This document shows positions 24,051-62,539 of a stretch of DNA of 64,000 nt, one piece after another. Both the position numbers and the translations under genes were made by a program. This stretch comes from Plumapathes pennacea (taxonomy: Eukaryota > Cnidaria > Anthozoa > Antipatharia > Myriopathidae): contig OZ038462.1 in assembly GCA_964036295.1 (NCBI GenBank), positions 17,985,264-18,049,263 of the forward strand, in the 5' to 3' direction. Position 1 is the stretch's first letter, and each line of letters starts with the position of its first letter. The notes under the pieces are model-generated. The model was not told the origin of the DNA and did not search any database. It saw only the letters and a list, made by a program, of their open reading frames with translations.

Positions 24051-26047
24051 ATGGGAAACGCGGGTAGTCTTCCTTCTCCCATCAAAGGCGTCAAGTTCTT
24101 GGAAGTGATCGGCGAAGGAAGCTTTGGAAAAGTTTATAAAGCCGAATGGAAAGGACAAAATGTGGCTGTGAAGCAGCTGAAAAGACACCAATTCCGCCAT
24201 GAAGATATCACAAGCAGATTCCGTGTCGAATGCCAGACGCTTCGTGGACTGGAACATAGAAATATTGTCAAAATGTTTAAAGTGATCGAGCCAGGCGGTG
24301 AAATCCCTCCGATCCTGATTTTGGAGCTTCTACACTGCGATCTCGAAACGTACCTTGCCAGGAACACGAAGCCAATTCCTTTGCAAAAAGTAGTGAACAT
24401 AATGTTAGATGTCGCTGAAGCACTTCAGTATCTACAAAACAAGCGTTACCCGATTGCACACAGAGACCTGGCCAGTAAAAACATACTGCTGACAAGCAAT
24501 GAACAAGCAAAGATCGCAGACCTGGGGCTCGCCAAAGTTCTTGTTTGCGACATGGAAGCCTCTGGGACTCCTGGGCATCGTCCATACGCCGCGCCGGAAA
24601 CGTTTCCCAGCAAAACAGGACCACATGGCATTTTCTTGAAGCCGAAATACGATGCGAGAGTGGATGTATTTTCCTTTGGAGTTTTATTACTCGAAGTGAT
24701 CACCGGCAACCCTCCTAAACCATATCCACCTGATGGTCCTGTCAATTACGGTAAGTGCGGCTATGCAAATGTATGTACGCACAATGAAAATACTCACCCC
24801 AATATTAGATACACAAATATCAACACAAACAGACATATTTTAAGCACACGCACATATGGCTTTGGCTACGTGACGAGGACGAGGTGAAAATATCAAGTGT
24901 AAATAAAATTTTATAATGGCTTTCATAGTAGGAGACTACATGTGTTATTTTTATAGCCGTTATTAATCTTAGGCCCAGTTTTCATGAGCCGAACTAATAC
25001 ATTCTAATGGTGTCAAAAGACGTTCTAGTCTGCGTGCAGACGTTGAATTTAGCGGGGCAGGACGTCTGCACGCAGGCTAAAGACGTTCGTGACGTGCGGT
25101 AAAACTGCGATAGCGCGCGTTCAATACAAGTAAGCTACACGAGGCTAATGTCTTCTTGTACCTAATGAAGCCACAAAGCTAAAGTTTTGTTGATACGGCG
25201 CTTGTACACTTTTTTTCCAGAAGGAGAGTTTATCCCAGAGATCCAGCGCCGAAATAAAGACATAGATCAGATGGGAACAGGGCACCGCCTGGCAGACATC
25301 GTCCTTGATTGTCTAGAAAATGACAGAGAAAAACGGCCGACTACTCAGCGGATTGTTGAAAGACTCAACCTAGAGAAAGAGAAGATCGATCAGAAGGTGA
25401 AGATCGCCTCAAGTGGACGCGCAAAGCTGAAAGTCCTGGCGCTCGGGGCATCCGGCGTCGGGAAAACATGCATTCTGAAAAGATTTAAGTACTCTCAATT
25501 TGATGTGGATGAACCTTCTACGGTCGGAGCTGACCTACTCTGGACGGATGTTAGCTACAATGGAATCGCCTTTCATCTTGAGATGACCGACCCCAGCGGT
25601 CAGGAGCAATTTTTCAGCGTCATACCATCACAGTTAAGAGACTCAGACGCTGTTCTGTTTGTTTTTGACATAAACAAGAGCAAAACCTTAGAAAAGGATA
25701 TCCCTACATTTATCCAGCTTTATTCCCTCCAGTATGGGTGTGAACCAAGTACAGTTCTTGTTGGCAATAAAGTGGACCGATCTGGCAAAGGTGCAGGAGC
25801 AAAGCGACAAATCTACGAAGTCACAGAAAAGAGAGCTCAAGCGTTTGCCGATAAGCACCACATGCCGTACATCGAGACGAGTGCAAAAACGGGTCACAAT
25901 ATTGAATGCCTGTTTGAGATGGTAGTGCAAATGGTTTACGAGCGCCTTGAACTGGGAGACATCCAAGACTATTTGCACTCTCGGCCTGGATCAAGTAAAA
26001 TAAAGCTTATTCCGAACGAACCCAAGAAGAGTTCTTGTGCCTGCTAG
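24051..26047 (+). CDS. KR1: protein kinase-Rab-like GTPase fusion, 508 aa
   Basis: Exons 24051-24750 and 25221-26047 join in phase 1 (GTAAGT / TTTCCAG). The kinase domain (about 14-290) has G-loop GEGSFG (21-26), VAVK Lys41, C-helix Glu60, catalytic HRDLASKN (Asp139), DLG in place of DFG (Asp157), APE (181-183), DVFSFGVLLLEV, and the C-lobe arginine in ENDREKRP. The HRDLASKN loop and DVFSFG block point to TKL/TK-like kinases. The GTPase domain (about 302-475) has P-loop GASGVGKT (309-316), switch-I Thr in STVG, DPSGQE, NKVD and ETSAK, and it resembles Rab proteins. The C-terminus KKSSCAC is a Rab-type CxC geranylgeranylation signal. The N-terminus MGNAGS fits N-myristoylation. The predicted product is therefore a doubly lipidated peripheral membrane protein. 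All catalytic residues of both domains are present. Substrate and pathway are unknown. Confidence 0.9.
25018..25082. repeat. Hairpin in KR1 intron
   Basis: TAGTCTGCGTGCAGACGT at the left is mirrored by ACGTCTGCACGCAGGCTA at the right around a short loop. It is a MITE-like hairpin; a similar one lies at 59858-59950. Confidence 0.6.
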
Positions 26048-26293
26048 ATTTATCAACATTAAATCGGAAGAGGGGAAAATGTGTCAGCCAGTTTTGTTGC
26101 TTGAATCTGACTAATCATTAAAATGCTTGGCTTATCTCCCTTCTTGTGTAGTTGAAGCCGTAAGCTTCCAGTCTATTTTATTAAAGACAACTTAAAACAT
26201 CACTTAGGCGTTTAGAATTATTTTTTAGATAGTACTTTCCCTGTTTATTGAAATCACGTTTTTAGTTCCTTTACTGTTAATTTCGGGAATTTT

Positions 26294-26419
26294 GTAGGTT
26301 GGTTGTGATCGTCCGGGTTAGAGTAGTCTCCAGAAAGACTGTTGTTGGTGACTGACGTCAGTCACCAACAACAGTCTTTCTGGAGACTACTCTAACCCGG
26401 ACGATCACAACCAACCTAC
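26294..26419. repeat. Perfect 126-bp palindrome
   Basis: Two 63-base arms are exact reverse complements with no spacer, centred on TGAC|GTCA between 26356 and 26357. Each arm belongs to the repeat family also seen at 17790 and 62585. It lies about 250 bases after the KR1 stop. Confidence 0.95.
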
Positions 26420-27009
26420 TGTTCACACTCCTGGATTCAAACCATTTGCCATGTTCGGGAGTTTTTATATAGGGTCAACCTCAAAACTCCTTTTCAGGGT
26501 GCTATTTCATTTATATTGTTGATTTTATAATTTTAGCTGTGTCTTGAATAAATACGTATGGTATTTATGGTATTTTTGTATCTCAAACATAGTAACTAAG
26601 TTGTTTTGCAAGCGATGGCTCACATAAAAATAACAAAAATGTTTAGACCTAACCCAAGACCAAACTTGCTTTCAACAAGCGGGTCCCTCAGGATAGTAAA
26701 TGAGTGCATGTGCGTTCGCAGTCGACAGCAGGATGCGTTTTAGATGATTGACATGTCATCTAGTTGAGTGCATGTGTTCCCTGCACGGGAACTGGCACGA
26801 GCTTCAAAACGAGGCTGTCCTGGCATAACGTGAAGGTTTAAGCCTTGGAAATCTGTGCGTGTAACTCCCCGAACGAAAAATGTGCATTTCCTCTGTTGAC
26901 GCCTTGGTGGTGTTTTAGAGCGATAGGAAACTCTCTTGTTTTGTCTGGTGATTTTCGTACCAGGCTAGCCTCGCTTTGAACCCAACTGCTTTCGAGTTAG
27001 TCATCGATA
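26420..27009. other. KR1-KR2 spacer
   Basis: No gene seen. A possible KR1 polyadenylation signal (AATAAA) lies near 26548 in TTGAATAAATACG, about 500 bases after the stop codon. Confidence 0.4.
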
Positions 27010-27363: not shown

Positions 27364-30300
27364 ATGGCAAACAAGAGATCTCTTCCTGCTCCCATAAAAG
27401 GCATAACGTTCTTGGAAGTGATCGGCGAAGGAAGTTTTGGAGTAGTTTACAAAGCTAAGTGGAAAGGACAAACAGTGGCCGCAAAGCAGCTTAAGAAAAA
27501 GCACGCCCACCATGAGAATACCAGAATGGGATTTAACAAGGAATGTCATACGTCTCTCGGGTTGGATCACAAAAACATTGTGAAGATGTTTTCCTTAATC
27601 AAAGCAGAAGGTGAAATCCCTCCAGTCCTAATTGGAGAGTTGCTTCACTGTGATTTGGAAACGTACTTAAGCGAGAACGCGAAACCACTTCATCCGTTAA
27701 AAGTGGTAAACATAACGCTAGATGTCGCTGAAGGCCTTCAGTATTTGCATTCCTTACGTTACCCGCTAGCTCACAGAGATCTAGCTAGTAAAAATATACT
27801 GCTGGCGAAAAATGGGCAAGCTAAGATTACTGATCTGGGGCTCGCGAGACTTCTTGTTGGCGACACTACAGCATCTCCAATTCCTGGTACTCTTGCTTAC
27901 GCTGCGCCAGAGACGTTTCCTAGTAAAGCAGCGCGAAGTGGCTTCTTATTAAAACCGACATACGATGTGAGAGTGGATGTGTTTTCCTTCGGAGTTTTGC
28001 AACTTGAAGTGATTACCGGCTACCCGCCTGACCCGTATCCGCCAAGAGATATTCTCAATGAGGGTGAGTAGGGCAGTAAACTTTTGAAAAAAATAGACTG
28101 GCGTTGCCAGTGACGGCTCGTGGCGTGAGTTGCGTCGAGACCAGAATATACTAAAATGGAAGTAGGGACAAGAGCGGAACTTCCATGAGAGACTTCCAGT
28201 TTCTCACCAGAAAAATATCACACAGTATAGAGAACTTAATGGTTTTTGACATCTTGCTCAAATGAAACCTGATTAAATTATAAATTATCATTACAACACT
28301 CATACACTTGCTTCTTAAAGGTTGAGCGACTCTGCATTTTGAGCTTAGGAGCTAAAAAAGCGTCAGCCGGCAAGAGAAGCTTACAATAGAAATGCGTGAC
28401 ATTTTTTATGCACAGTCGATTTTGACAGTTTGGCTTCGAACACATATTTCTAATCAGAGGCCACGATTAAACCAGCCTTCGCTTCAATACTAATCTGTTT
28501 CTTTTATTAACTGAATGCGTTTCTTTTATCAGGCTTTCGAGTATTCGTGCTCTGTATCAAATATAAAAGTGAAAGCGAGGAATCAGTGTAACACGATATT
28601 TGTTTACAATATTATTGCGGCTTTGTTCACAGCGTGTTCAGTCCATTTGCAGACTGCAAACTCAATGCTCAGGACTATTTTTCATTGCTATACAATGACC
28701 ACTGCGAAACAAAGGCTACATAATCGAATGGAAGAAACATTTCAACAGGCATTGTGCAATAAGCAGAAGAATTTTATGAGCCAACAGATGTCATGTACCG
28801 GAGTAAAGCATAAATCGCCATTGTTTTACGGCTAAAGCTCATCGTAGCTTTGGTTTCCGTTTTCGGCCTGTTATCTTCCCAAAAGTATTTCGTGTCGCCA
28901 CAGAAAGTTTCGTCGGGACTAAATACTTAGCGGCGACAGCCGATTCCGCAGCGGTATCCATCAAACATTTGCCTACGGCTATTCTAAAGCTTCCGCCCCT
29001 AAAATCCAGTTTATCCGTGCGTGTTCCACAAAGCCAAACGGCGTTGAGTTTGGATTAAATGCACTTAACTTTTACACACAAGTAACGAGCAGTTCACTGG
29101 CCACACTCGAGTGTTTAACGAAGTCAAGGCTAATTGCCGACTGCGGCTTTTATTGTATGAACAAAAGACGATGGATTACATTTTTATAATCTCCTGTTAC
29201 TCTGTCACAAATAGGAAATTGTTACAGCCGTTTCGGTTTCAAGTTTGGTATGTAGTCTCCTGTCGAGTTTTCGACCGTTTCAGACATTGTTTTTTTTTTT
29301 TCGTTATGCATTGCCTTGCTGAAGAGGTGGACAAGCAATAAAATCACTAAGCAAAAAACAGCAAACAGGGTTGCATTGTGTGTGTGTGTGTGTGTGTGTG
29401 TGTGAGAGGGGGGGGGGGGGGGAGGGGTTGGGAATTGTGGGGGGCTGAATCGAGTTTCTCTGGAGCCATGTTATCATAAGAGTATTCAGTGTGTGTGATT
29501 GCGGGAAATCTGTTCTTTGATGCTGTTACTATAAAGAATTAATACTTTACAACACTCCGTATTGGCGCCTGGGATTGTGCTAGCTGGTTGGCTTGAGTCG
29601 ATGCCTTAAAGAAATCATTTCAATTATTTTACGGCTAGCAATCTTGCCTCCCACACAGTGGCACAATTTCCGGTTGTTTACAGCCGGCAAACTGCTTGGC
29701 TTTGTATTTGCAATCTTGTTGTAGAAAAGTCACTGCCGTCGTACTCCCATTGCTTTATACCGCAATGAATCAAAATTGAAAGCTGGCGTCTCAAAAAAGC
29801 ACGATACTACACCATTAGCGCCGTGATTGTTACCCTAGCAGAGCTCGGGATCAATAGTAGTATGCACCAATCACATTCGAGTAAATTGCTACTTGACAAG
29901 GGTGAGTTTTCTCTACGGGAAGTTATTCAAGCAGAACTTCTGGAAATATTTTGTCATATTTTATAAATTAGTCGTTTGTTATTATTATCGACTTATTTTG
30001 CAGAAGGAGAACTTATTCCAGAGTACAAGCGCCGAAAAAAGGATATCTCGAAGATGGGCCGAGAGCACTCTTTAGCGGGCCTTGTCCTTCAGTGCCTAGC
30101 AAATGACAGAACAGCACGGCTGGCCACTCAAGAGATCATTGAAAAACTCAACCAGGAGAAAGAGAAAATTGAACGGAAGGTTAAGATCGCCGCCTCGAGT
30201 CAACATTCAGATCGAAAGTTGAAGGTTATTGCGCTCGGGGCATCTGGTGTCGGGAAGACCTGCATTCTGAAACGGTTTCATAACCCCCATTTTGATTTCA

Positions 30301-30785
30301 AGCATGAGCCTAATACGGTCGGAGTTGACTTTCTCTGGAAAATGGTCACCCACAATGGAATTGCCTTTAATCTTCAGATGATTGACACTTGCGGGGAGGA
30401 GCGATTTCACAGTATGATACCATCACACTTGAGGGAGTTAGATGCTGTTCTCTTCGTTTTTGACGTCAACAAGCTCAAAACTTTAGAAAAGGATATCCCT
30501 TACTACATGCAGCTTCTCTCCAGCCACTCAAGGTCTGATGTAACCACAGTTCTGATTGGGAATAAAGTTGACAAATCTTGCAAAGTCACAGATGGAGCTA
30601 AACATAGAATCAGCAAAGCAGTGATAACCGAACGAGCTAAAGCGTTTGCCTGTACACACAGCATGCCGTACATTGAGACGAGTGCCAAGACAGGTCACAA
30701 CGTTGAGCAGCTCTTTGAGATGTTGGTAGAGCGTGTTTACGATCGACTTGCTCTGAATGACATTGAAACGTACTGTTCTAACTAG
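27364..30785 (+). CDS. KR2: kinase-Rab-like fusion with truncated, unlipidated tail, 493 aa
   Basis: Exons 27364-28063 (donor GTGAGT) and 30004-30785 (acceptor TTTTGCAG), phase 1. The kinase keeps GEGSFG, VAAK, HRDLASKN, DLG, APE and DVFSFG. The GTPase keeps GASGVGKT, NTVG, NKVD and ETSAK, but the switch-II motif is DTCGEE, with the catalytic Gln replaced by Glu. It begins MANKRS, so there is no Gly2 for myristoylation. It ends YCSN with no prenylation cysteines, because the stop codon lies in CTAG, the terminal bases of a Helitron-like insertion (see 30782-35471). It is closest to KR1 (shared SLPAPIKG / SLPSPIKG, APETFPSK and exon lengths). Probably soluble and possibly signalling-altered; expression not established. 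Confidence 0.85.
29376..29425. repeat. (TG)n plus poly-G run in KR2 intron
   Basis: About 14 TG units directly followed by a run of about 15 G residues. Simple sequence only. Confidence 0.9.
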
Positions 30786-32605: not shown

Positions 32606-32607
32606 TA

Positions 32608-32912
32608 AGTTTAATACGCTTCTTCGAGTGTGACAAAATTTAGAGCCGTCAAAGCGAGTCGCTTGTTTACACGCTTTCGAAGTCTCGGGACCGTGTGAAT
32701 TTTGGCAGGTATTCAATTTTGAACACAACAACTTTTCAAACTGTGTTTGACGATTTTAAAATCTTTGACAGAAAAAAGAAATCAAGTCACTAAATAATAC
32801 AAGGTCCGATTGTATTGAGCGAGCAAACCCGGTCACTAAATAATACAAAGTTCGATTGTGTTGAGCGAGTATCTTACGGGGTCCCGCTAGTAGACAATAA
32901 TATACTAGAAAT
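32608..32912. repeat. Spacer of the Helitron inverted pair
   Basis: 305 bases between the arms, containing a tandem duplication of GTCACTAAATAATACAA and GTTCGATTGT-type text (about 32787-32870). No coding potential. Confidence 0.7.
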
Positions 32913-32914
32913 AC

Positions 32915-37018: not shown

Positions 37019-37023
37019 CACCA

Positions 37024-38580: not shown

Positions 38581-41500
38581 CTAGATTCTAAACCAGGCTG
38601 TAAACTTGTCACATAGGCTAAGAGGGACACTATGTGGAGCCTCGCCAGGAAAATAAATCTCAATATCCTCCAGATCAAGTCGATTGTAAACCATCTGCAC
38701 CAACTGCTCAAAGAGCCGTTCAATGTTCTCACCCGTCTTCGCACTCGTCTCGATGTACGGGATGTCGTAGTTTCTGGCAAGTTCTTGCGCTTCCTCTCGT
38801 TTCACTTGACGAACCTGGTCAGCTTTATTCCCAACAAGAACCATGCTAACATCAAACTTTGAGTAGTTGGTGACCGATTCGGCAGCTTCAGGAATCTTCT
38901 TAAAAGACGCAGGGTCGGAGATATCAAAAACCAACAGGACGGCGTCCAGGTCTCTAAAGAGTATTGGCGGAATGCTGTTAAAGCGCTCTTGTCCCGCCGT
39001 GTCCAGCAAGTAAAGACTAAAAGCTATTCCATTGTGGGTTACTGACGTGGAAAAACCCTCTGACCCCACTGTTGGAGACACAAATTCTGTGTCAAAGCGA
39101 GGGTTTACAAACTTTTCGAGCACGCAGGTCTTTCCAACGTGCGCTCCCCCCAGCGCAAGAAACTTGAGCTTTGCCGCTCCACTAGAAGCGATTCTGATCT
39201 TTCGATGAATTTTTTCCTGCTCTTCGTTGAGTCTTTTGACGATCTTCTGGGTAGTCGGCCGTGCTTCGCTGTCATTTTCAAGGCATTGAAGGACAATGTC
39301 TTCCAGGCGATGCCCTGTTCCCATCTGATCTATGTCTTTCTTTCGTCGCTGGAGCTCTGGGATAAGCTCTCCGGCTGCAAAAACAAAAGAAGTCCGGTTA
39401 AGATTTCTCGACTCAAACTGGACACATATAGTTGGAGTAGAACCGGTCGAGACTCGTTAATCATGGATGTCCAAACATTCGTTCAACACGGTAATCGTTT
39501 CGTGGCGTTGGCCTTACAGAACAAAACCTTACAATCTTACAAAACCTTACAAACGTCAAAGTCTTTCGTGTATTTCAACAGTCGCCGTATATTTTGAAGT
39601 TTGATACCCGGAACTGTGATGAAGGCGAAGTAGGAATGTATTGTGAGCTTTCGTTACTTTTCAAAGCTATTTCAGAGAGCTTTCGTACAAGATAACCTTT
39701 CCCGTTATTGAAGCTATTTGCATATATGCAAATAGCTTTTATGCCGGCGCCTCGGACAAACAGCCGTTTGGCCCATCTCATTAGGTCATTAGGTGGCAAA
39801 AACTATTCAGGGGGGAGGGGCATGAACTGTTATCCATATAAAAGCCGCCGTGGTGCAGGACCTGTGAGAAAGTTTGTCCTTTATTATCTACTTAACACAA
39901 AGATTGCACAGAGAGATTCCCAGTAAAGGGTTTCCGTGCTAATGTTATAACTTGGCGACAGAATGTCAGAAACTAATTACCTCTCCAGGGAGGGGTCTTC
40001 TAAATATGGCTCTCTCGCACGTGGAGAATCAAGGCACTATTTAATGGCGGCTATGAGTGTTGCCGATTCTTTGGTTGTATGTGGAAATCTGCTCCCCCTT
40101 CAGCCCCTGGCTGACATATCCGTGGTATCTGGCAAACAGGCGACACAGATTCACATTTAAAGCAACATTTCTGGACACATTTGCGAATATACGCTCCGCT
40201 CACGAAAGAAGAAATACAGCTGTATGGTGTGACCATGACATATGTTTTGGCAAAGCTTATTCCGAGATTTTTTGCGTTCGCTGATATGTTTGTGATTGAT
40301 TTCATGACATAATAGCAGATGCAGATCGACTGTGGTATGTCTGAGTTGTTTGTTTATAAAATTGTCTTGAGCGGATTCTGACGCTAATGAAAAATCGACA
40401 GGAAATTTTACTGTGAATCCTTTTCACCACCGTTTGAATAGCACGAGAAACCGGTTTGTTTGGCTGGAGTGTGTTACGTTACGAAACTATTATAACGTGT
40501 CAAAATCTGGTTTACCTCGCATGATATGTTTGATGACACATGATTTGATGACATCATTGCAGATGCAGATCGACTGTGGTATGTCTGAGTTGTTTGTTTA
40601 TAAAAGTAAAAGCGGGTTTTGTCGCTAATGAAAACTCGACAGGAAATTTTACTGTGAATCCTTTTCACCACCGTTTGAAGAGCACGAGAAACAGGTTTGT
40701 TTGGCTGGAGTGTGTTACGTTAATACGAAACTATTATAACGAGTCAAAATCTGGCTTACCTTGCAGAAATTTACAGAACGACTTGAAATATTTTGTTAAG
40801 CTATACTTTTGCTCCTTTTAATGTCAATCAGATAAAAATAATTCCCACGCCCTGCGTGGGTACTAATCTAAACCCCATATGGTTTTTTTTAATGTCTGTC
40901 GTTCACGGACCGACCTCCCCGCGTAGCGGGGCTTGCTAGGTAAAACATCTGAACAGAATCATGTCCCCGCACCGCGGGATTTGCTGGGTAAAACATCAGA
41001 ACTCCAATCTTGTTTCCAGGCTCTATCCTGTCCGAGCCCGAATTCTCGTGTTGTGATGTCTGTCTTTCACGGTCCGACCTCGGTTGATCACGTGGTGTTC
41101 TGGTAGTCCGTTGCGGAGCGACAGGACAGGAGATTGAATGAGTGACCGAGAGCATTACAATCAGAAACGAGCTCAGGAGACAACCCAGGAAAGAGAACGG
41201 CGCATTAAGGCCCGATCAAACGATGAATGATAGCTGATGATTGTTGCGATCCCGAAACTATCACCTACTATCATTAACTATCACAGAGAGCGACCAAACG
41301 CTCACGAGAGAGCTCATGATAGTCAACCGAAAATAACGCCAACCCTCCTCCCCCCCCCCCCCCCCATTGCCAGCTAGAGTAGCTTCTCAGCTATTCTGAG
41401 TATCTTTATCGAAGGCCAGTCGATCTTAAAATGAATTTTGTACTGTAGCAATTGTTAATATTTTGACAAATTTTACTCTACCAACTTTCGAGTGTTAAAG

Positions 41501-44830: not shown

Positions 44831-46810
44831 TTGCTTGAGTGCAGGGAGAACGGTAGGAGATGGGAAGGGGGGGGGAGTTTGATACTCCATCAAAATTTTC
44901 TCTCTGTGAGTGACTCAGATACCACATATTTATTGTTAATCTCCTAGTAACATGCACACAATAATTTCTGCATTCTGATTGGCTGAGCGCACGTCAATTC
45001 ACCCCAAACAGTGTAAAAATGTGTAATTAACAGTGCAGAAATGTGAAATTAAGAGCGCAGAAATTTGAAATTAAAAATTGCCGACAGCTGGCGCGCGTAT
45101 TTGCGGCAACTCCAAACAAAACAGAAGGCATGTTTTCATTCCTCCGGACGATTCCGATTCAGCCTTATGAAAACATAAAGTTCTTGAGACACTTGATTTG
45201 CAACGAAATTGAAAAAGGTTGTGAAAAACCACAAATTGCACTCGCGCTGCGCTCGTGCAATTTTGTAGTCTTTGAAAATTTACTCGTGCTCATTTATTCC
45301 AAATTGTACTCGAAATCATGCGATTACCTATACAAACAAAACCAACAAAGTTTTTATCACTATAGTTTAAACTGTTCAGGGAAGTGTAGCTATGGTAACC
45401 ATCCTCACTCGCTTGTACTTTCGAGGATTAAGTATAGTTATTTTTACTAGCTGTTTAGTTGAGGGCAATGGCGTTCCAAACCCGCTGATTGAGAATGGTA
45501 TGCGTAGCTAATGCCCGAAAAAGGGGGGAGGGGGTACTCCCTATAACGGATTCCTTATAATGGATTCCCTATAATAGACTATATTGACTATGATACTTGC
45601 TGAAGGTATATGAAAGGGTGCCTTTTTTAATAGGTTAGAGGTACCCCCTTGAATATATGATATTGTTTTGCATCAACACCACTATGGTTAAAACTCAATG
45701 TTCTGTTGGGAACACCCTCAGTTAATTCTGTGGGCGCAGAAAAGGGATAGAGTGTTTGTATACTGCAGGTAAATGAAAAAGGTTCCATTTTCGGAAAGGT
45801 ATGTGAAAAGGATACCTTTTATTTCAAAATTGGTATATGATAAGGTAAGGGTTTGGACCTAGAGTCGGAGCCTCCCCGTATAAAACTTTACTAAGTACCC
45901 CCTCCATCCCACCACGCGTCCCCCCGGGAGTCAATGCAACCGACGTACACGGAGTGTTTATCAGTGGTTTAATAAATAGTTCACAAATCCAAACGTCGCT
46001 CCTTATTTTCTCGATTTTTCTCGATATTTTGCAGACGGAGAACTTATCCACGAACACCAACGCCGTAGAAATGACCTCATGATGATGGGGAAAGAGCATA
46101 GGCTGTCTGAACTTGTCTTTCAGTGCCTAGAAAATAACACGGAAGCACGACCGACTGCCAAGGAGATGGCTCATAAGCTCAATGACCATAAAGAGAAGAT
46201 TGACCGGAAGGTTACAATCGCTTCCAGTGGACGCCCAAAGTTGAAAATTGTTGCACTCGGTGGGATCGCTGCCGGGAAGACGTGTATCCTGGAACGCTTC
46301 GTAAACTCAAAGTTTAACTATGCAATGGTGATACCCACAATTGGAAGCAGCATTTACACCACAACGATCACCCATAATGGTATCACATTCGGTCTTCAAA
46401 TGGATGACACTGCTGGACAAGAGAGATTTGACAGTATTCCTCCAATATTACTCCGAGATTTAGACGCAGCTCTGTTGGTGTTCGATGTTTCCAATCGTAA
46501 ATCTTTTGCGAAAATCCCTTCTTGCATCCAAACGATCGCTTGTCACTCAAGGCACGAGGTGAGCATGATTCTTGTTGGCAATAAGATTGACATGTCCACA
46601 AGTCGCAAAGTCCTGACAGAGGAAGCACAAGCTTTCGCCAAAACGTACGCCATGCCTTACATTGAGACGAGTGCAAAGACTGGAGAGAACATAAACCGGC
46701 TCTTTGAACTAGCTGTGCAGATGGTTTACGATCGACTTGATTTGAGTGACATCGACATTTATTTTCCGGTCGAGGATCCCGTCACAAAACCTACAAATTG
46801 TAATTGTTGA
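43997..46810 (+). CDS. KR4: predicted pseudokinase-Rab-like GTPase fusion, 495 aa
   Basis: Exons 43997-44708 (donor GTGAGT) and 46035-46810 (acceptor TTTTGCAG), phase 1. The kinase fold is recognisable, but three key positions are changed. The glycine loop is GQGSYR (last Gly to Arg). The catalytic loop is HRNLSSKN (Asp to Asn, codon 44426-44428). The metal-binding DLG is NLG (Asp to Asn, codon 44480-44482). VAAK, APE and DVFSFGVLLLEV are kept. The GTPase is intact: GGIAAGKT, PTIG, DTAGQE, NKID, ETSAK. MGNETSS at the start fits myristoylation and TNCNC at the end is a CxC prenylation signal. It may act as a membrane-bound GTPase with a scaffold or allosteric kinase domain. No frameshift or stop is present, so it appears to be maintained. 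Confidence 0.88.
44798..44830. repeat. (GT)n microsatellite in KR4 intron
   Basis: About 16 GT units followed 40 bases later by a short G-run. Simple sequence. Confidence 0.9.
45523..45905. mobile_element. MITE with GGGGGTACT / AAGTACCCCC ends in KR4 intron
   Basis: The left end AGGGGGTACTCCCTATA and the right end ACTAAGTACCCCCTCC are inverted. The interior has GGTATATGAAAGGGTG and GGAGCCTCCCCGTATA. A related element sits at the equivalent place in the KR5 intron (49432-49765). Confidence 0.6.
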
Positions 46811-48304: not shown

Positions 48305-50329
48305 ATGGGAGTCGGTAGTTCTCATCTGTATGAATACAATGGCTTGAAACTCTTGAAACAGATAGGACAAGGAGGTTACGCGAAAGTTTACAAAGCCGAA
48401 TGGAAGGGAGAAATCGTAGCCGCAAAGCAGTTGCTGGAAGATGTATACTATCAAGTTGAACTCACCGAGAAATTCTACGATGAATGTAGGATACTTCGCA
48501 AGTTAGATCATCAAAACATTGTGAAAATGATTGATTTACACGAACCAGGCGGTGAAATCCCGCCTTTTCTAATTACAGAACTAATGAACAGCGAACTAGC
48601 GGAACACATTCACAAACGACGGATTCCGTTGCTAGATGTGCTAAACTTAATGCTAGACGTTGCCGAAGGACTTCATTATTTGCACAACAGCTCCCCTCCA
48701 ATAGCTCACAGAGATCTTTCCAGCAGAAACATACTGATGACCAAAGATGGAAGAGCTAAGATCGCCGATCTTGGGCTCGCAAAATATTTTGTGCGCAAAG
48801 CATTTACTACTCCAAGTCCTGGAGCTCCGCTCTATGCTGCACCGGAAACGTTTTGTCATAATCCCGTCTATGATATGAGAGTGGATGTGTTTTCCTTCGG
48901 AGTTTTGCTGCTTGAGGTAATCAACGGCCACTACCCCAAGCCAGTTCCATTGATGAGTCCTGTCACTCAATGTAAGTAATATCTTTCAGGCAGGGAAATC
49001 CATCTCTCCCTCAATTAGTGCTTCTTTTCGTACCCTCAACTTTAGTATTATAGCATAAATAGGCTGTATTCCCAGGACAGTGGGCCCGCGCATTTACTTC
49101 ACATGGTAAGGCAAACTTTCTCGAGGCACGAGAAATATATCTTGTTTATATATCGATAGAGAGGCGAGAAAGAAGGGAAGTGAATTCGGCTCTGGTGCCA
49201 AGAATGTGACAACAGTTCTGTTTGAAAGGCCCAACTCTGAAGCTCAGTTAAACTAACTGTTTTCTCAGTGGTATGCCCCTGGACCTCTTTCCAAAGTTCT
49301 ACCTTTCGCATCCCATTGGTTCACCCCAATCTATCAAAAATTGCATTTTTAAATCGCTATAAAGCTTTCTCTGGATTTCTGTGGAAAGTTTAGCTACAAT
49401 CAAGGAGAAAACCTTGGAACACATACGGAGGGAGTGGGGGGGGGGGGGGGGGGGCACTTCCTTCGATCGACTATATGGGGAAGCTCCGTCCGAAAGAAAA
49501 AGGGTATAAAAAAACGACGATTTTTGGTATTTGAAAGGGTCTGTAAAAGGGCTGGCCAGAGAAAAATCGTATCACAAAGGTTCTAAACTGGCTTGTCCCT
49601 CGGCCGAAAAATTTGCGTTCCCGAGCAAGTTTGCATTGGACTTTTTCTGTTCAAAGGCATAAAAAGGATGTAAATGTTTACTACAGGTATTTGAAAGGGT
49701 AAGGGGTTGAAAGCCTCGTCGGAGCCTTCCTGTATAGAATTTCTTCAAGTGTCACCTCGCCCTATCCCTCTCCCTACCACCCCCCCCCCCCTCCACCCAT
49801 CCTTTGCACATACCAATCGCTACCGCGTACCACTCCCTGTCCAATGTTGCTTGAACATGTAGCTCGAACATTACTTGCGATCCACACAACATTGAATTGA
49901 GTGGAGGGGAGGTCTGAAAAACGGCATAAGTTAATGAAATCGATCGGTCAATAGATTGCCCCGAGAATTTTGTCTTCCACGGCAGGTCCTGTTATAAAAC
50001 TGTGCGCTTACGTTGCAGCTGGAGAACTTACCCCAGAACACGAGCGACGCAGGAACGACCTTATGGAGATGGGAGCAGAGCACAGACTGGCGGGCCTTGT
50101 CCGTCAATGCCTAGAAAATGACAGAGAAGCACGGCCAACTATCAGTGAAATCATTGATAAGCTCAACGAGGAGAAAAAGAAACTTAAGAGATCGTGCAAT
50201 AACAATCCCGCACCATTGATCAGGAGCGTCACGAACGGCCGGACGAGTATTTTAAGTCGTCGTCTTGTAATTGCTATTATTTTAATATCTTTTTATCTAA
50301 TTTTGTTTGTTTTCTTGATACATTTTTGA
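48305..50329 (+). CDS. KR5: kinase with C-terminal tail anchor, GTPase lost, 325 aa
   Basis: Exons 48305-48971 (donor GTAAGT) and 50019-50329 (acceptor GTTGCAG), phase 1. Kinase: GQGGYA (last Gly to Ala), VAAK, HRDLSSRN, ADLGLA, APE, DVFSFGVLLLEV, and C-lobe ENDREARPT, so catalytic Asp and Lys are present. Exon 2 starts as in all paralogues (GELTPEHERRRNDLMEMG) but leaves the family pattern after KLNEEKKKL. Instead of a GTPase it has about 30 residues (NGRTSILSRR may be a P-loop relic) and then a very hydrophobic segment LVIAIILISFYLILFVFLI ending HF, followed by the stop. This predicts a single C-terminal transmembrane anchor. The N-terminus MGVGSS still fits myristoylation. Membrane attachment seems kept by a new means while the GTPase was discarded. 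Confidence 0.83.
49432..49765. mobile_element. MITE-like element in KR5 intron
   Basis: Begins with a run of about 19 G, then GCACTTCC...CGACTATATGGGG. It contains GGTATTTGAAAGGGT twice and GTCGGAGCCTTCCTGTATAG near the right end. It is the same family as 45523-45905. Confidence 0.5.
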
Positions 50330-51435: not shown

Positions 51436-53341
51436 ATGGTAAAACTGCCTAACATTAAAGGTTTGAAACGCTTAGAAGAGATCGGGGAGGGAAGTTTCGG
51501 GAATGTCTACAAAGCGAAGTGGAATGGAGAAGATGTAGCTGCAAAACAGTTGAAGAAACGCGTATACTTTCAAGAAAGATTCGCCGAGAGATTCAGTGCC
51601 GAGTGCATGACGCTTCGCGGGTTGGATCACAAAAACATCGTGAAAATGATCGACGTCATTCCAGGAGATAACGAAGTTCCTCCTATTCTAATCACAGAAC
51701 TGCTACACTGTGATCTAGAAAAGTACATCAAGGACCAAACCTCGATTCCTTTGAAAGATGTGGTGAACATGATGCTGGATGTCGCCGAAGGACTTCAGTA
51801 CTTACACAACAGACGACTGCCGATAGCTCACAGAGACCTGGCAAGCAAGAACGTATTGTTGACGAAAGATAGAACAGCTAAGATCGCCGATCTTGGGCTC
51901 GCTAGAGTGTTTGTTAGCGCAGGTATTGCATCTGCAGATGTTGGAACTCCGCTCTATGCCGCGCCGGAAACGTTTTGTCATAAAGCAGCGGACAGTGGTC
52001 AGTTTGTAAAACCAGAGTACGATGTGGGAGTGGATGTGTTTTCCTTCGGAGTTTTGTTGCTCGAAGTGATTAACTGTCGCACTCCCAGGCCAGACCCGCG
52101 TGGTAGTCCTGTCACTGAAAGTAAGTTCAACCATTGATTTTATTTCACCTCATATTCTGGCTATCCTACTTTAAAATAATGTGAAACAGTCGAACATAAG
52201 GTATTTAATAATAATATGACTTACTGGCATAGTAAAATGTGACTGAGCTTTCTACCAGACAGCTTTCTGATCTACCGTAGGAAGGCACTAACTTAGGCAA
52301 CATACAGAAGCCTTACACACACCTTCCACGTCTACATGTAAGCCATAAATTTCTGCCTCTTAGCTATACAATCAATCACGCTACTAGTATTATTAACACT
52401 CAAAAAGACGTTACAATGGAAACTGGCAACAAATAGGTGACTGCTCAAACCAGACTGCATCTGTCTTACTGACTTTTCACTTTTCTACTTTGCAAGTATT
52501 GATCAAGATTTTCCGTCTACGTTGCTGTGTAACGCATATTATTCGATACTTCGCAGCTGGGGAACTTATTCCAGAACACAAGCGCCGAAGGGAGGACATC
52601 TCGAAGATGGGTAAAGAGCACTGTCTGGCGAGCCTTGTCCTTCGGTGTCTAGAAAACGACAAGAAAGGGCGACCGATTGCCAGGGAAATCGTTGATGAGC
52701 TCAAAGAACAGAAAGAGAATATTGACCGGAAGGTTAAAATTGCTTCCAGTGGACGCGCAAAGTTGAAAATTGTGGCACTCGGTGGGGTGAATGCTGGGAA
52801 GACGTGTATCCTGGAACGCTTCGTAAACTCAAAGTTTAACTATGCAATGGTGATACCCACAATTGGAAGCAGCATTTACACCACCACGATCACCCATAAT
52901 GGCATTACGCTTTGTCTTCAAATGGATGACACGGCTGGGCAAGAGAGATTTAAAAGTATTCCTCCACAACTACTCCGAGAGGCAGACGCAGCTCTGTTGG
53001 TGTTTGACATTTCCCGACGCAAATCCTTTGCGGAAATCCCTTCTTACATCCAAATGATCGCTAGTCACTCAAGATTCGAGGTGAGCATGATTCTTGTTGG
53101 GAGTAAAGTTGACATGTCCGAGAGTCGCAAAGTCTCTAAAGAGGAAGCACAAGCTTTTGCCAAAACTCACGCCATGCCTTACATCGAGACGAGTGCGAAA
53201 ACGGATGAAAACATTGAGCGCACCTTTGAACTGGCAGTCCAGATGATTTACAATCGACTTGATTTGAGCGACATTGAACTATATGTTCCTCTCAAGAATG
53301 CTGATTCCCCCAATGAAACCAGTGGATGCAGTTGCTGTTAA
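51436..53341 (+). CDS. KR6: kinase-Rab-like fusion with CC tail, 489 aa
   Basis: Exons 51436-52120 (donor GTAAGT) and 52557-53341 (acceptor CTTCGCAG), phase 1. Kinase: GEGSFG, VAAK, HRDLASKN, ADLGLA, APE, DVFSFGVLLLEV, all intact. GTPase: GGVNAGKT, PTIG, DTAGQE and ETSAK are intact, but the guanine-specificity motif NKxD is SKVD (Asn to Ser), expected to weaken guanine binding. The start MVKLPNIKG lacks Gly2, so no myristoylation. The end GCSCC is a CC-type Rab prenylation signal. A 107-base stretch of the GTPase (52796-52902) is identical to KR4 except for one base. Confidence 0.9.
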
Positions 53342-55430: not shown

Positions 55431-55435
55431 TCGAA

Positions 55436-55497
55436 ACTAGTACCCAACTCTCTGTGTTCAATGTGCATATCAAGTTTCGAGAAGTTCCGGTATAAAC
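55436..55497 (+). promoter_or_regulatory. KR7 promoter module
   Basis: ACTAGTACCCAACTCTCTG (55437-55455) is a diverged CTAGT element. AGTTCCGG (55483-55490) is a one-base variant of the ETS-like site, 8 bases before the ATG. Confidence 0.45.
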
Positions 55498-58400
55498 ATG
55501 GGAGTCGTGTGTTCTCAACCGTTTGAAATTAATGGCTTGAAATTGTTAGAAAAGATTGGTGAAGGAGGTTATGCGAAAGTTTACAAAGCCGAATGGAAGG
55601 GACAAGTCGTTGCTGCAAAGCAGTTGATGGAACACATATACTTCCAAGACGAACTTAAGGAGAGATTTTATGCTGAATGCGAGACGCTTCGCGGGCTGGA
55701 TCATCGAAACATTGTGAAAATGATCGACTTACTCGTACCAGACGGTGAAATCCCACCGATTCTAATCACAGAATTGCTACATTGCGACCTAGCAGCGCAC
55801 ATAAGAAGGCAGACCTCGCGGATTCCAACTCCAGAAGTGGTGAACATAATGCTGGATGTCGCCAATGGACTGCGATATTTGCACAACAGACCACTGCCGA
55901 TAGCTCACAGAGACCTGACCAGCAAGAACGTGTTGTTGACGGAAAATGGAACAGCTAAGATAGCCGATATTGGGCTGGCGAAAACTTTCATCGCCCAGGC
56001 AGTCGCCTCCCCAAATCCTGGAGTTCTACTGTATGCTGCACCGAAAACATTTTGTCAGCAACCCGTCTATGATGTGAAAGTGGATGTGTTTTCCTTCGGA
56101 GTTTTGTTGCTTGAAGTGATAAACGGCCACTACCCCAAGCCAGTTCCATGTAGGGGTCCTTTCACTCAAAGTAAGTTTATATGTCGGAAAAAAAATATTT
56201 GAGGGAAGCAGCTTCCCTGATTTGAGTTTGAATTGTGTCACGGGTATTTTGACCCCTGTGTTATTTTATTACGATTAATGGTGGATAAGTTATATGAGTT
56301 TAAGGGAGTGATCGAGTGGCGAAGTGAAGTATAAATTAAAATGATGTGCGTTAGTACGTGATTATATGCTGCAGCGCTAAAATGGGGTCCGTGTCAGGGC
56401 TTGTATTTGTGTAGGGAACATTTTCGGTAGGGAGACATGTAGTTGGGGTCGGTAGTTAACACGTGTGTTGGGTAACAAAGGGGACGGGAGCGAAGAGCGA
56501 ATAAAACCGAGAATACAATAAACAGAGAACTGAAAAACGAAGGGATTAGTGAAGACGCTAACACAATAACAGTAATTAATAAAAGTGGAAGTTAAACGGG
56601 TGGTGTAGGAAAGAGCGCTCTAAAAAGTGTGTTGAACTAATGACCATCATTTGAGGTTTGTCCGTCGAAGCAACCGCGCTATTCTCATCAGGGGCATAGT
56701 AACGCGGTTGCTCTATGAAGGTGAAAGTTCCTTCAATAGTACGTGTTTCGAAATGGTAGGCGCGCGCCATCCATGCCCTACACGATCAACGGTTACAAAC
56801 TTTTGGCCCTGGCCGAGTTGAGAGTGAAGGGAGAAAGGCGGGGAAGATGGTCAAGACTTCGATACAAGGAGGGGAGGGAAAAAATAAGGTGGAAGGAATT
56901 GACTTACCTCGATAGATTTCCGAAGATCGATGCCGTAGGACTGCATCCAAACGCTAAGTAAAATACTGGGTTGCAATACGACAGGCAGTTGTAAACGAAG
57001 TTGAATCGTGGCCACGTGAAATGTAAAGTGACCTTTGGTTTGTGGGGGCGTACCTTTCGCTGGCCAATAGGAGGCGGGTATAGAGAATTATTAACAAGGA
57101 AAACGGTGACTGGGAGGGGCGGGTCGAAGGGGAAATAGTTTGTGAAACACATTTGTTTTTGGAGACAGGAAAAGGAGTTTCGTAGTACTTGTTTCTGTTG
57201 GGTGGGGGAGGAGGGAATTGTTTGAGGCCTGGGGATCGGGGGGGGGGTGTGTTGTGGGTTGTAGAAAGTTGTTAGAGGGGGAAATTGTTTGTAAAACACA
57301 TTTGTTTTTGGAGACAGGAAAAGGAGTTTCGTAGTACTTGTTTCTGTTGGGTGGGGGAGGAGGGAATTGTTTGAGGCCTGGGGGTCGGGGGGGGGGTGTG
57401 TTGTGGGTTGTAGAAAGTTGTTAGAGGGGGAAATTGTTTGTAAAACACATTTGTTTTTGGAGACAGGAAAAGGAGTTTCGTAGTACTTGTTTCTGTTGGG
57501 TGGGGGAGGAGGGAATTGTTTGAGGCCTGGGGATCGGGGGGGGGGGGGTGTGTTGTGGGTTGTAGAAAGTTGTTAGAGGGGGAAATTGTTTGTAAAACAC
57601 ATTTGTTTTTGGAAACAGGGAAAGGAGTTTCGTCGTAGTTGCTTCTGTTGGGTGGGGGAGGGGGGAATTGTTTGTGAAACACATTTGTATTTGGAAACGG
57701 GAAAGGGAGTTTCGTAGTTGTTGTTTCTGTAGGGTGGGGGAGGGGGAATTGCTTGAGGCCTGGGGATCGGGGGGGGGGGGGGGTTGCTGGTTATAGAAAG
57801 TTGTTTGAGGGGGAAATTGTTTGTGAAACACATTTGTATTTGGAAACGGGAAAGGGAGTTTCGTAGTTGTTGTTTCTGTAGGGTGGGGGAGGGGGAAATT
57901 TGTTTGAGGCCTGGGGAGCGGGGTAGGGGAAATGGAAAGTTGTTAGGGAAAAAAAACAATTGTTTTGTAAACACATTTGTATTTGGAAACAGGAAAAGGA
58001 GTTTCGTAGTTGTTGTTTCTGTTGGGTGGGGGAGGGGGAATTGTTTGGGGCCTGGGGATCGGGAGGGGGGTGTGTTGGTTGTAGAAAGTTGTTTGAGGGG
58101 GAAATTGTTTGTGAAACACCTTTGTATTTGGAAACGGGAAAGGGAGTTTCGTAGTTGTTGTTTCTGTAGGATGGGGGAGGGGGAATTGTTTGAGGCTTGG
58201 GGATCGGGGGGAGGGGGGAATGAAAAGTAGTTGAAAGGGAAATTGTTTGTAAAACACATTTGTATTTTGAAACGGGAAAATGAGTTTAGTAGTTATTGTT
58301 TCTGTTGGGTGGGTCGCTCGTGCTGCATAAATTGTTTAATTGGATTAAAATGACGTTACGGTAAACATTAAGATGTAATTGGAACGGAAATGTGAATTAA

Positions 58401-60920
58401 TAAGTAAGCGGGGACGGTTTGTTGTGAAATAATAAACACAAGGGGATCCTTGGTTAGGATCGCTCTTTTCCCCGGTAAATCAGGACATAGTTTGAATTGT
58501 GTCACGGGTATTTTGACCCCTGTGCTATTTTATTAAGATTAGTGGTGGATGAGTTATATGAGGTTAAGGGAGTGATCGAGTGGCGAAGTGAAGTATAAAT
58601 TAAAATGATGTGCGTTAGTACGTGATTATATGCTGCAGCGCTAAAATGGGGTCCGTGTCAGGGCTTGTATTTGTGTAGGGAACATTTTCGGTAGGGAGAC
58701 ATGTAGTTGGGGTCGGTAGTTAACACGTGTGTTGGGTAACAAAGGGGACGGGAGCGAAGAGCGAATAAAACCGAGAATACAATAAACAGAGAACTGAAAA
58801 ACGAAGGGATTAGTGAAGACGCTAACACAATAACAGTAATTAATAAAAGTGGAAGTTAAACGGGTGGTGTAGGAAAGAGCGCTCTAAAAAGTGTGTCGAA
58901 CTAATGACCATCATTTGAGGTTTGTCCGTCGAAGCAACCGCGCTATTCTCATCACGGGCATAGTAACGCGGTTGCTCTATGAAGGTTTTATTCGCTCTTC
59001 GCTCCCGTCCCCTTTGTTACCCAACACACGTGTTAACTACCGACCCCAACTACATGTCTCCCTACCGAAAATGTTCCCTACACAAATACAAGCCCTGACA
59101 CGGACCCCATTTTAGCGCTGCAGCATATAATCACGTACTAACGCACATCATTTTAATTTATACTTCACTTCGCCACTCGATCACTCCCTTAACCTCATAT
59201 GACTCATCCACCATTAATCGTAATAAAATAGCACAGGGGTCAAAATACCCGTGACACAATTCAAACTGCTTCCCTGATTGACCTTTGCTACCACGCAAAC
59301 TCAAACTGCAGATTCTCCTTTCAAGAAGCCAAAATATATGAGTGATGGTGTGAGAATTTGTGTGCACCTGAATCCGGGCCGTGGGAGGGTGGGGGACACT
59401 ATGAAGGGCCATACGAAGAGATTTCGCCTGAACGGGCTTCCGTTCTACGCTTCATGTACAGGCATAGGGACATGTATAGAAAAAAAAATGTTTCTTTTTG
59501 CATTCTAAAGGGTCAGTAAGACAAGGCTGAAGAGAGTAAAATTGTATTATATTTTATAAAAATTCCTGTCGCGGTTGTGGTCTTTTAAACAAATCCCTGG
59601 ATGAAGTCAGCGATAGTCAGACGAAACGCGTTGGAGAAGTAAGCATGTTTTACAACTGAAGTTCGCACCGAGTGCTGCTCACTAATTTAGCTTTTAAAAA
59701 AATGTCACGTGCCGTTTTTTTTGCCACTTTGTTATGGGCTTGTTACTTTTTTCTATATTTAAAGGTACATGGAGGGGGTACATTTAACTAGAAGACGCAG
59801 AATTGAAAGGGTCAAGATTATCCTTGTTTTCCAATTTTGAGTCTGACACTGCTGATCCTAGCCTCGTGCGCAGATGCTCTGAACTCGTCACACAAAGATG
59901 GGAGGAATCTTTGTGTGAAGAACTCAGAGCGTCTGCGCACAGGAGGCTATACTGATCCACGACAAAAAAGTTTGGAACAACATCAGCCGTATTGCGCGTC
60001 TCACATGACAGTCACATTCGCCCTTTCTTCTCCCATTTCAACGGGTATTCGAGTCGAGTACTTACATAGAATATTGTGGTGGCGAAGGGGGGTTTCATAT
60101 GCGTCGAATCTGTGAGTTGGGATCCGCTCAAGATTGGTGGCCTAATATTTCAACTGTGCGTGTATCTTGCTTTGCAGATGGGGATGTGGTTCTAGAACTC
60201 CAGCGCCGTGAGAGAGACATCTCCGATATGGGAGCAGGGCACTGTTTGTCGGGTCTTGTCCACCAGTGTTTAAGAAATGAAAGCGAAGCACGGCCGACCG
60301 CCAAAAAGATTGTTACAATACTATCCAGACAAAAAGAGAAGATTAAGTGCAAAACAAGGCAACCACTGTCTTATAGATTCCAGTGCAGTGATCATCCAAG
60401 ATTGAAGGTATTTGTGATCGGGAACAGCAAAACTGGCAGGACGAGTATTATACGTCGGCACCAGAACTCCCTCTTTCATTGCGACGAAGCCTCATGTAAC
60501 ATTACAGGAGAAAACTATTATATGACGAGGGTACATTCTGATGGAATCAACTACAGTCTTATGTTGGTTGACACCGTTGGGGTTGAGCTCGTGTACCGCT
60601 ATGGCACGCGATGGGATTTTAGATTTGCAGACGCCGTTCTGTTTGTTTTTGATATTTCGAGACGCGAGACCTTTGATGAAGGAGTCCATGATTGCATCCA
60701 AATGGTTGGCGACAGCTTAAAGTATGAGGTTAACATGATTCTCGTTGGGAATAAAGTTGATTCCCCGCTTCGCGAAGTATCAGCAGAGGAGGCGCATGCA
60801 CTTGCAGATAAGTACACCATGTGGTACATCGAGACGAGTGCAAAGACGGGTCAGAACATTGAGGATCTCTTTGAGCGTGTGGTGCAGATGGTTGTCAACC
60901 GACGTTATCTGCATGGTTGA
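55498..60920 (+). CDS. KR7: kinase fused to a degenerate Rab-like GTPase, 471 aa
   Basis: Exons 55498-56170 (donor GTAAGT) and 60178-60920 (acceptor TTTGCAG), phase 1; the 4-kb intron is filled by a composite element. Kinase: GEGGYA, VAAK, HRDLTSKN and DIG keep the catalytic Lys and both Asp, but APE is APK. The GTPase is visibly altered. The P-loop is GNSKTGRT (invariant Lys to Arg) and switch II is DTVGVE (Gln to Val). The switch-I region has no TIG/TVG motif. NKVD and ETSAK remain. The tail stops at RRYLHG with no cysteines. The start MGVVCS fits myristoylation plus palmitoylation of Cys5. Likely a kinase with a GTPase-like module that binds nucleotide poorly or not at all. Pairing the exons across the long intron rests on phase, order and the absence of other candidates. 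Confidence 0.8.
56223..59267. mobile_element. Composite inverted-end element in KR7 intron
   Basis: A block of about 500 bases starting TTTGAATTGTGTCACGGG occurs at 56227-56726 and again directly at 58490-58986. Part of it recurs inverted at 58985-59267. The outer ends are inverted copies (AGTTTGAATTGTGTCAC) and both are flanked by GCTTCCCTGATT (56211-56222, 59268-59279), which looks like a 12-base target duplication. The G-rich minisatellite lies inside. No transposase or polymerase domain. Confidence 0.65.
57120..58310. repeat. G-rich minisatellite, about 150-bp units
   Basis: About eight units of roughly 150 bases (some shortened) each contain GAAACACATTTGT, GGAGTTTCGTAGT, TTCTGTTGGGTGGGGGAG and a run of 7-13 G after GGGGATC. 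The antisense strand reads as proline-rich open frames up to 228 codons, which are an artefact of the repeat. Confidence 0.9.
59858..59950. repeat. MITE-like hairpin before KR7 exon 2
   Basis: Arms CTCGTGCGCAGATGCTCTGA and TCAGAGCGTCTGCGCACAGG, with inner CACACAAAGAT / ATCTTTGTGTG, fold back on each other. Confidence 0.75.
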
Positions 60921-61800
60921 CGCTGCAAATCATGATTTATACTGCTCAAGAAGCTGTGCAGTTACATCACGGTATATCGTGATAGCTTTTTCGCAATATT
61001 GTCGCGGGCAAGCTCAGAAAGTAAATACACTGGTTTATATCATTCTCGAGGTAAGGTCCAGCCATGCATGAGGAAAACGTTAAGCTGCTAGCTGGTGGGG
61101 AGGTCTGATTTGAGGCCAGAAAATAACTATGTTGTTACGGCTGAAAATGCAGGAGTAGCAAACAAAAAAACTTGATACCTGATATGAAATGAGCCAAACG
61201 CAGCCAGGAGCAAGCTGTTGGGATCCATGTGGGAAAATGTCCGGCTGAACTTTTGCCTACTCTATTCATCATTGGCTGGTATTAATCTGTAAAATAATTC
61301 TAGGCCCGACTGTTGTGTCTGTTATGACGTCTGTACGCAACACCACTGACCATGTTGACTGCATCAGAAGCTCAGTTTTCTTGACTTTGCAAGGCGCGCC
61401 TTTGTCGTCCAAGATGGCGGACAAGCATTATAATCACGTGATAAATGACGTAGGCTTGCTAAGACTTCATAATTTGTCTAGAATGGTATATTTGGTGAAT
61501 GAATAAAAGGTATTGTTGCAGAAAAAGTATAAAATGGGAGACTGACCGTATTTTTGGTTGAATGAGCAATAAAATCCGATAAGTGTGTTTGGTTTAAATA
61601 TAGTGGTACTGTTTCAAGTTTTTGTTGTTGCTGTAGTTTTCTTGTTATTGTTATTGTTATTTTTTTCTTTTCATGCTAGTGATATATTATTTACACGAGC
61701 AGTTAACGAATTTTCTGCGACTTTTCACGCAGAAAGTAAACAGGGAGCAGAGGACACCACAACACTAGTGTTCATGCCCATCACAATCATCTTATCTCAA
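60921..61800. other. KR7-KR8 spacer
   Basis: No gene seen. AATAAA in GAATGAATAAAAGG near 61502 could end the KR7 transcript. Confidence 0.4.
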
Positions 61801-61842
61801 GACTAGTTCCAACTCTCCTCGTTCAGCTTCCGGCTTGTCAAC
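61801..61842 (+). promoter_or_regulatory. KR8 promoter module
   Basis: GACTAGTTCCAACTCTCCTC (61801-61820) and GCTTCCGG (61826-61833), 9 bases before the ATG. This is the most compact version of the shared module. Confidence 0.55.
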
Positions 61843-62539
61843 ATGGGAATCGGGAGTTCTTATCTGTTCGAAGTAAATGGTTTGAAATGTCTTGAAAAGA
61901 TCGGCGAAGGGTCTTTCGGGAAAGTTTACAAAGCCGAGTGGAAGGGAGAAATCGTGGCTGCAAAGCAATTGCTGAAAAGCGTATACTTTCAAGATGCAGC
62001 TGCCGAGAGATTCTTTGCCGAGTGCGAGACGCTTCGCGGGTTGAAACATCCAAACATTGTGAAAATGATCGACTTGGTCATGCCTGGGGGAGATGTGCCC
62101 CCGGTATTAATAACGGAGCTGCTAGACTGTGACCTTGGACAGCATATTAAGAATCGAATCTCGATTCCTTTACCAGAAGTGGTTAATATCTCATTAGATA
62201 TCGCCCAAGGTCTTCGATATTTGCACAACAGATCACTGCCGATAGCTCACAGAGATCTGGCCAGTAAAAACGTTTTGCTGACTAAAGATGGAACAGCGAA
62301 GATCGCCGATCTTGGTCTCGCAAGAGTTTTTGTTTGCCAAGCAATCGCCTCTCCACGTCCTGGAACTCCGTTGTATGCCGCACCGGAAACTTTTTTTCAC
62401 AAATCACCGAGCAGCGGCGAGTTCGTAAATCCAGCGTACGACGTGAGAGTGGATGTGTTTTCCTTTGGGGTTTTGCTTCTTGAAGTGATTACCGGCCACC
62501 AGCCCAGACCAGATTCATTGATAAGTCCTGTCTGTCAAG
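61843..62539 (+). CDS. KR8: kinase exon of a KR fusion, 3' exon outside window
   Basis: Exon 1 ends at the family phase-1 donor (CAAG|GTAAAT) at 62539, after 232 codons plus one base, matching the other members. Kinase motifs are intact: GEGSFG, VAAK, HRDLASKN, ADLGLA, APE, DVFSFGVLLLEV. The start MGIGSS fits myristoylation. No exon carrying the GELIPE-type start, C-lobe end or GTPase was found between 62540 and 64000, so it lies beyond the window or is lost. Reading through the donor would stop 12 codons later. Confidence 0.8.

Follow-up and report, generated by a model that had tools for sequence, protein, structure and literature searches.

Do a kinase and a Rab GTPase belong to one protein here, and if so, what would that protein do? 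The question is raised by a 64,000-nucleotide stretch of the Plumapathes pennacea genome (Antipatharia; assembly GCA_964036295.1, contig OZ038462.1, positions 17,985,264 to 18,049,263 of the forward strand), which we call the window. Eight kinase first exons lie in it between base 24051, the ATG of gene 1, and base 62539, the final exon-1 base of gene 8. Pfam places a kinase domain in all eight, from the ATG to the F-helix region. A second exon accompanies seven of the eight genes, and in six of these seven it encodes, in a single frame, the end of the kinase followed by a Rab-like GTPase, with the Ras family matching each of the six second exons scanned (E 2e-28 to 3e-47). An earlier sequence-only reading of the locus had described this arrangement, and its coordinates, counts and domain order held up under Pfam scans and exon joining. 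All seven introns, 0.4-4 kb in size, have GT..AG ends, lie in phase 1 and interrupt a homologous codon. Exon 2 opens with 68-74 residues of kinase tail and linker and continues into the complete Rab with no intron between, which puts the kinase-Rab joint inside one exon.

The copies share 36-78% protein identity, and the ratio of nonsynonymous to synonymous substitution rates (dN/dS, NG86 method) is 0.14-0.57 in 41 of 43 pair-by-domain comparisons, the remaining two having a saturated dS; given these values, the cluster members are evidently not chance reading frames. With dN/dS well below 1 throughout, there is no sign of positive or diversifying selection at the level of the gene, these being gene-wide values that do not cover single sites. 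The locus had also been called a tandem array, which is right as to clustering and needs a caveat as to order: gene 3 (38581-43322) is inverted, being encoded on the minus strand, and interrupts the head-to-tail arrangement.

The same fusion recurs in other species. Three protein searches, seeded by 5-residue words with a threshold of E 0.001, passed 366, 603 and 758 proteins, and among the best 120 listed for each are at least 33 further clusters in which kinase and Rab share one open reading frame (ORF); members from outside the hexacorals may lie beyond the best 120 or have been missed by the seeding. Thirteen of the 33 could be assigned to species, nine in all, every one of them hexacorallian among the matches listed. 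Pocillopora verrucosa, Porites harrisoni, Porites lutea, Acropora millepora, Acropora palmata and Oculina patagonica have one fusion each, and Montipora foliosa (2), Stylophora pistillata (2) and Actinia tenebrosa (3) have several. The longest contigs of the other 20 clusters measure 1,896 to 3,219 bases; because the window introns span 0.4-4 kb and the ORFs of the relatives run unbroken across the same point, these contigs look, from their length, like spliced transcripts. ORFs on genomic contigs (P0004, P0005, P0012-P0017) begin or end near the intron point, which suggests that the intron position is conserved in the relatives. The findings that the sequence-only reading had named as refuting it did not arise: ORFs of other species cross the junction of exons 1 and 2.

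Has the pair been inherited together? Trees of the kinase and Rab parts, built separately with quick IQ-TREE runs on 25 relatives and the window genes, contain the same five subfamilies (A-E), each with SH-aLRT support of 97-100 in each tree. Eight of the 33 clusters were left out of the trees and counts (P0126-P0131, near-duplicates of P0125, and the fragments P0272 and P0273); P0002 and P0133 are isoforms with pieces missing, and gene 7 (G7) and P0252 form long branches. Subfamilies D and E each hold Actinia, an anemone, together with stony corals. The division into subfamilies is therefore older than the separation of those orders, and on the simplest view the fusion is as well. Kinase and Rab distance matrices correlate at r 0.90, as high as none of 5000 permutations (maximum 0.21), which shows co-inheritance of the two domains, not physical contact. 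We judge the fusion to be ancient, its two parts having been passed on together.

In the kinase tree, weak support (82) places two sequences in which no Rab is seen, the Actinia protein P0010 and the ORF P0019, with subfamily C; for these, Rab loss and a separate origin of the fusion are both possible. P0010, from Actinia tenebrosa, is a related kinase whose C-terminus, hydrophobic and rich in glycine, stands in place of the Rab; Pfam found no family in this protein beyond the kinase, and the C-terminus is ApoL-like by eye only. Judging from P0010, other membrane modules may also have become attached to the kinase. The annotated Pocillopora damicornis kinase P0237 ends shortly after the P-loop, as either a truncated gene model or a second Rab loss.

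Both halves of the fusions retain most of their motifs. The kinase half has the canonical fold and catalytic residues and is closest to TKL/TK kinases, with the lysine in 33 of 33 sequences and the aspartates of HRD and DxG in 32 of 33 each. Counted over 31 fusions (25 relatives and six window genes), GK(S/T) is kept in 29, DxxG in all 31, and the N, K and D of NKxD in 30 each, the exceptions being gene 7 (GR), gene 6 (S for N), P0252 (Q for K) and P0002 (a P-loop gap and E for D). The catalytic glutamine is retained in 20 of 31; because the binding motifs are kept so much better, nucleotide binding seems to matter more than hydrolysis in these Rabs.

By sequence and structure, the nearest neighbours of the GTPase half are Rabs, not Ras, Rho, Ran or Arf, among the matches listed. 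Searches of the PDB with gene 3 and P0008 gave GTPase rows that were all Rab, Ypt or Sec4 (best 60 each). The VIA-align match lay mainly over the kinase half, and gene 6 exon 2 was therefore folded separately; its AlphaFold2 model has a predicted local distance difference test (pLDDT) score of 87, and 49 of the 50 PDB matches listed by Foldseek name Rab, Ypt or Sec4, one title being truncated. In the model of P0239 (pLDDT 85, predicted template modelling score 0.79), a helix at 271-292 reaches just short of Rab strand 1. A viral structure library returned kinase matches and a few Ras-type ones, none convincingly across both domains, the long alignments having root-mean-square deviations of 16-24.

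The termini often carry putative lipidation motifs. Prenyl-type cysteines (CC or CxC) occur in the last seven residues of 20 of 31 fusions, CxxC alone in four and neither in seven; an MGxxx(S/T) start occurs in 13, and 10 combine it with CC/CxC. Among 98 other proteins of the same search, taken as controls, three have CC/CxC and none MGxxx(S/T).

We propose that these genes belong to an ancient family of hexacoral signalling proteins with a composite build, and we would give an even chance to the working that seems likeliest, a membrane-docked kinase with its own Rab as address. An N-terminal TKL-like kinase is followed by a long helix that leads into the Rab GTPase at the C-terminus. The Rab half, through its nucleotide state and its binding of guanine nucleotide exchange factors, GTPase-activating proteins, GDP dissociation inhibitor (GDI) and effectors, would set the membrane and the timing of the kinase, which would be anchored by an N-myristoyl-type start in many members and by Rab-type prenyl cysteines in most. 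The kinase would phosphorylate proteins at that endomembrane, in some members possibly its own Rab or that of a sister. Paralogs have diversified, some with one working half and gene 5 with a hydrophobic tail replacing the Rab. The analysis shows the gene structure, the conserved fusion and motifs, the co-inheritance of the domains and confidently predicted folds; from these we infer lipidation, GTP-dependent targeting, kinase activity and substrates. Several observations weigh against this proposal. The catalytic glutamine is missing in 11 of 31 fusions, so many members may not cycle as an ordinary Rab does; lipid motifs are not universal, with seven of 31 lacking CC, CxC and CxxC and 18 of 31 lacking the strict myristoyl pattern, and the control set, mostly plant kinases, is loose. 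The tryptophan of WDTAGQE is a Rab signature, and none of the 29 rows of alignment A3 has a tryptophan before DTAGQ; for this reason we term the GTPase half Rab-like.

The closest analogues are the large Rabs and LRRK. Like the coral proteins, the large Rabs Rab44, Rab45/RASEF and Rab46/CRACR2A-L place a C-terminal Rab after an N-terminal signalling module. In the portion of a review that covers them, they are defined by EF-hand and coiled coil, EF-hand proteins alone are given, and Rab45 has a C-terminal prenylation site (PMC8303950). The coral family, by contrast, has a kinase at the N-terminus and, in many members, a myristoylation-type start; Pfam scans of 30 proteins at E 0.01 gave kinase and Ras-type families for the fusions, and no EF-hand. 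LRRK1/LRRK2 and other Roco proteins likewise unite kinase and GTPase in a single polypeptide, and LRRK kinases act on Rabs, according to the relevant part of PMC8469595. The order is opposite, as had been claimed: kinase then GTPase here, as one protein, Roc-COR then kinase there, and the GTPase here is of Rab type by sequence and structure. In the same scans the GTPase half also receives a Pfam Roc score, lower than that for Ras, and no COR, LRR or WD40 is reported. DAPK1 has an N-terminal kinase, ankyrin repeats and later Roc-COR and a death domain, with no lipid tail; its layout resembles that of the coral proteins in placing a GTPase-type domain downstream of the kinase, so placing the kinase ahead of the GTPase is not peculiar to the coral proteins, but these consist of kinase and Rab only. 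Unfused invertebrate TKL-type kinases (P0303 from Geodia barretti; P0134, P0145, P0146) have an alignable kinase with the same ERR.. C-lobe segment and differ in lacking a Rab, P0134 having two kinase domains.

The window genes vary in what they retain. Kinase motifs are intact in genes 1, 3 and 6, and so, apart from the serine for asparagine in NKxD of gene 6, are the GTP-binding residues. Gene 1 (+ strand, exons 24051..24750 and 25221..26047; 508 residues) has the myristoylation-type start MGNAGS and ends in CAC. Gene 3 (exon 1 42605..43322, exon 2 38581..39374; 503 residues) starts MGNTDS, and a short aromatic/basic tail replaces its cysteine motif. Gene 6 (+, 51436..52120 and 52557..53341; 489 residues) ends in CSCC and lacks MGxxxS, as does gene 2 (+, 27364..28063 and 30004..30785; 493 residues), in which glutamate stands for the catalytic switch-II glutamine. 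Divergence of catalytic motifs, noted in the sequence-only reading, is borne out by two genes that have lost key residues. Gene 4 (+, 43997..44708 and 46035..46810; 495 residues) reads HRN for HRD and NLG for DLG, ends in CNC with its GTP-binding motifs intact, and is predicted to be a pseudokinase with a normal-looking Rab. Gene 7 (+, 55498..56170 and 60178..60920; 471 residues) starts MGVVCS and has APK for APE; with GR for GK and both the switch-I threonine and the switch-II glutamine lost, it is a predicted pseudo-GTPase. For genes 4 and 6, dS is 0.39 between the Rab exons (46035-46810, 52557-53341) and 0.81 between the kinase parts, which suggests that exon-wise gene conversion has likely acted on the former.

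Gene 5 (+, 48305..48971 and 50019..50329; 325 residues) starts MGVGSS and has no Rab. Its second exon matches the others through the end of the kinase, then retains a P-loop remnant, recognisable by 43 bases that match gene 7 around its P-loop (E 7e-5), and closes with a hydrophobic C-terminal segment whose 19-residue stretch has a mean hydropathy of 3.3, against 1.1-1.6 for the best stretches in the other seven proteins. This points to loss of the Rab and possibly the gain of a tail anchor; alternatively, the exon may be decaying. Gene 8 is represented by exon 1 (+, 61843..62539; start MGIGSS), and no second exon is seen up to the window end at base 64000.

The pairing of the gene 7 exons bridges a repeat-rich intron of 4.0 kb, in which a repeat of ~284 bases occurs three times at 99% (two direct, one inverted) around a tandem array of 145-149-base units (56225-59267); G skew is strong (+0.35) at 56-60 kb. 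Between genes 2 and 3, at 31319-34196, lie two nested near-perfect inverted repeats (arms of 674 and 506 bases, 99%) with a charged, repeat-rich ORF of 166 residues in each outer arm; together they make up a foldback-type mobile element. The cluster is flanked by the final part of TMEM117 (1182-2348, +; Pfam E 2e-65) and by WD40-type exons (8519-11314, -) that are DCAF6-like by eye only, and an Rfam scan of the window gave 0 matches.

Could the kinase instead act on the Rab itself? In an LRRK-like phospho-switch, in cis or between sisters, phosphorylation of a switch-II serine would lock the Rab on its membrane and change its effectors, an account that we think rather unlikely. Serine or threonine at this site is common in ordinary Rabs, which tells against it. 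LRRK1/LRRK2 and TBK1 phosphorylate the equivalent Rab residue, and phosphorylation of Rab7A Ser72 or of the Rab8/10 switch-II site weakens GDI binding or alters effectors (PMC8469595). In the fusions a serine five residues after the catalytic glutamine is found in 19 of 31: 14 of 15 in subfamilies A-C, which together with the LRRK comparison makes a cis switch attractive for those subfamilies, but 5 of 16 in D and E. Since the position is not Ser/Thr in 12 of 31 (6/8 in D, 5/8 in E), we rejected switch-II phosphorylation as a general function of the family.

The genes might also form a diversifying immune family in which a Rab or pseudokinase would detect, as bait or sensor, microbes that interfere with host trafficking, and here too we consider the chances small. 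Clustered, diverged paralogs that include one predicted pseudokinase, one predicted pseudo-GTPase and one Rab loss would fit, as would the homogenised Rab exons of genes 4 and 6 with their lower dS; against this stand the dN/dS of 0.14-0.57, a gene-wide measure blind to single sites, the catalytic and binding motifs mostly kept in both domains, and the fact that we saw no immune domain or linkage. The sequence-only reading's suggestion of an expanding defence family gains no support from the same low dN/dS, and nothing ties the genes to defence. A hexacoral-specific role in controlling traffic at the membrane of the algal symbiosome or the phagosome strikes us as very unlikely: the three fusions in Actinia tenebrosa, which is not known to be symbiotic, speak against it, even though the species-assigned matches are hexacoral only among those listed and symbiosome persistence in anemones depends on the Rabs present, as part of one paper has it (PMC3750612). 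That two adjacent genes, a kinase and a Rab, were misread as one, or that the cluster is a set of decaying pseudogenes, is barely credible, for although gene 5 has lost its Rab, genes 4 and 7 have lost catalytic residues and the window genes are known here from DNA alone, kinase tail and linker share an exon with the Rab, ORFs of other species are unbroken across the junction, the frames are open and dN/dS is below 0.6 wherever computable.

A still bolder version of the membrane-docked kinase has, we think, a slim chance of being right. In it, kinase and Rab would form a circuit complete in itself and held by two lipid anchors; the kinases of subfamilies A-C would control the switch-II serine of the fused or a sister Rab, each copy would have its own membrane address, and pseudokinase or pseudo-GTPase members would act as regulators. 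If true, one protein would do what LRRK and Rab do as two.

The sequence-only reading knew of no described animal family with this layout, and literature searches, with subscription papers and preprints outside their scope, found no published description of kinase-Rab proteins, and the parts of coral genome papers examined do not describe them. In a survey of Rab evolution that includes Nematostella, Rab44 and Rab45 are two of the three Rabs with an additional domain, and its main text is silent on kinases (PMC3425129). An Acropora digitifera catalogue has an entry 'Rab family, other' with 27 copies, and the present family might be among them. Database names given to its members are misleading (GTP-binding protein YPT1, PBL1, PBL3, TMK4, DDB_G0271682), so that a role in coral membrane traffic, symbiosis or immunity would be easily overlooked. 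Few Rabs have several domains, and the fusion brings a new architecture to that group. In humans, LRRK-type kinases and Rab GTPases control one another while remaining separate proteins, a relationship relevant to Parkinson's disease; a natural covalent fusion of a kinase with a Rab, retained in stony corals as well as a sea anemone, would offer a ready system for studying kinase-Rab communication.

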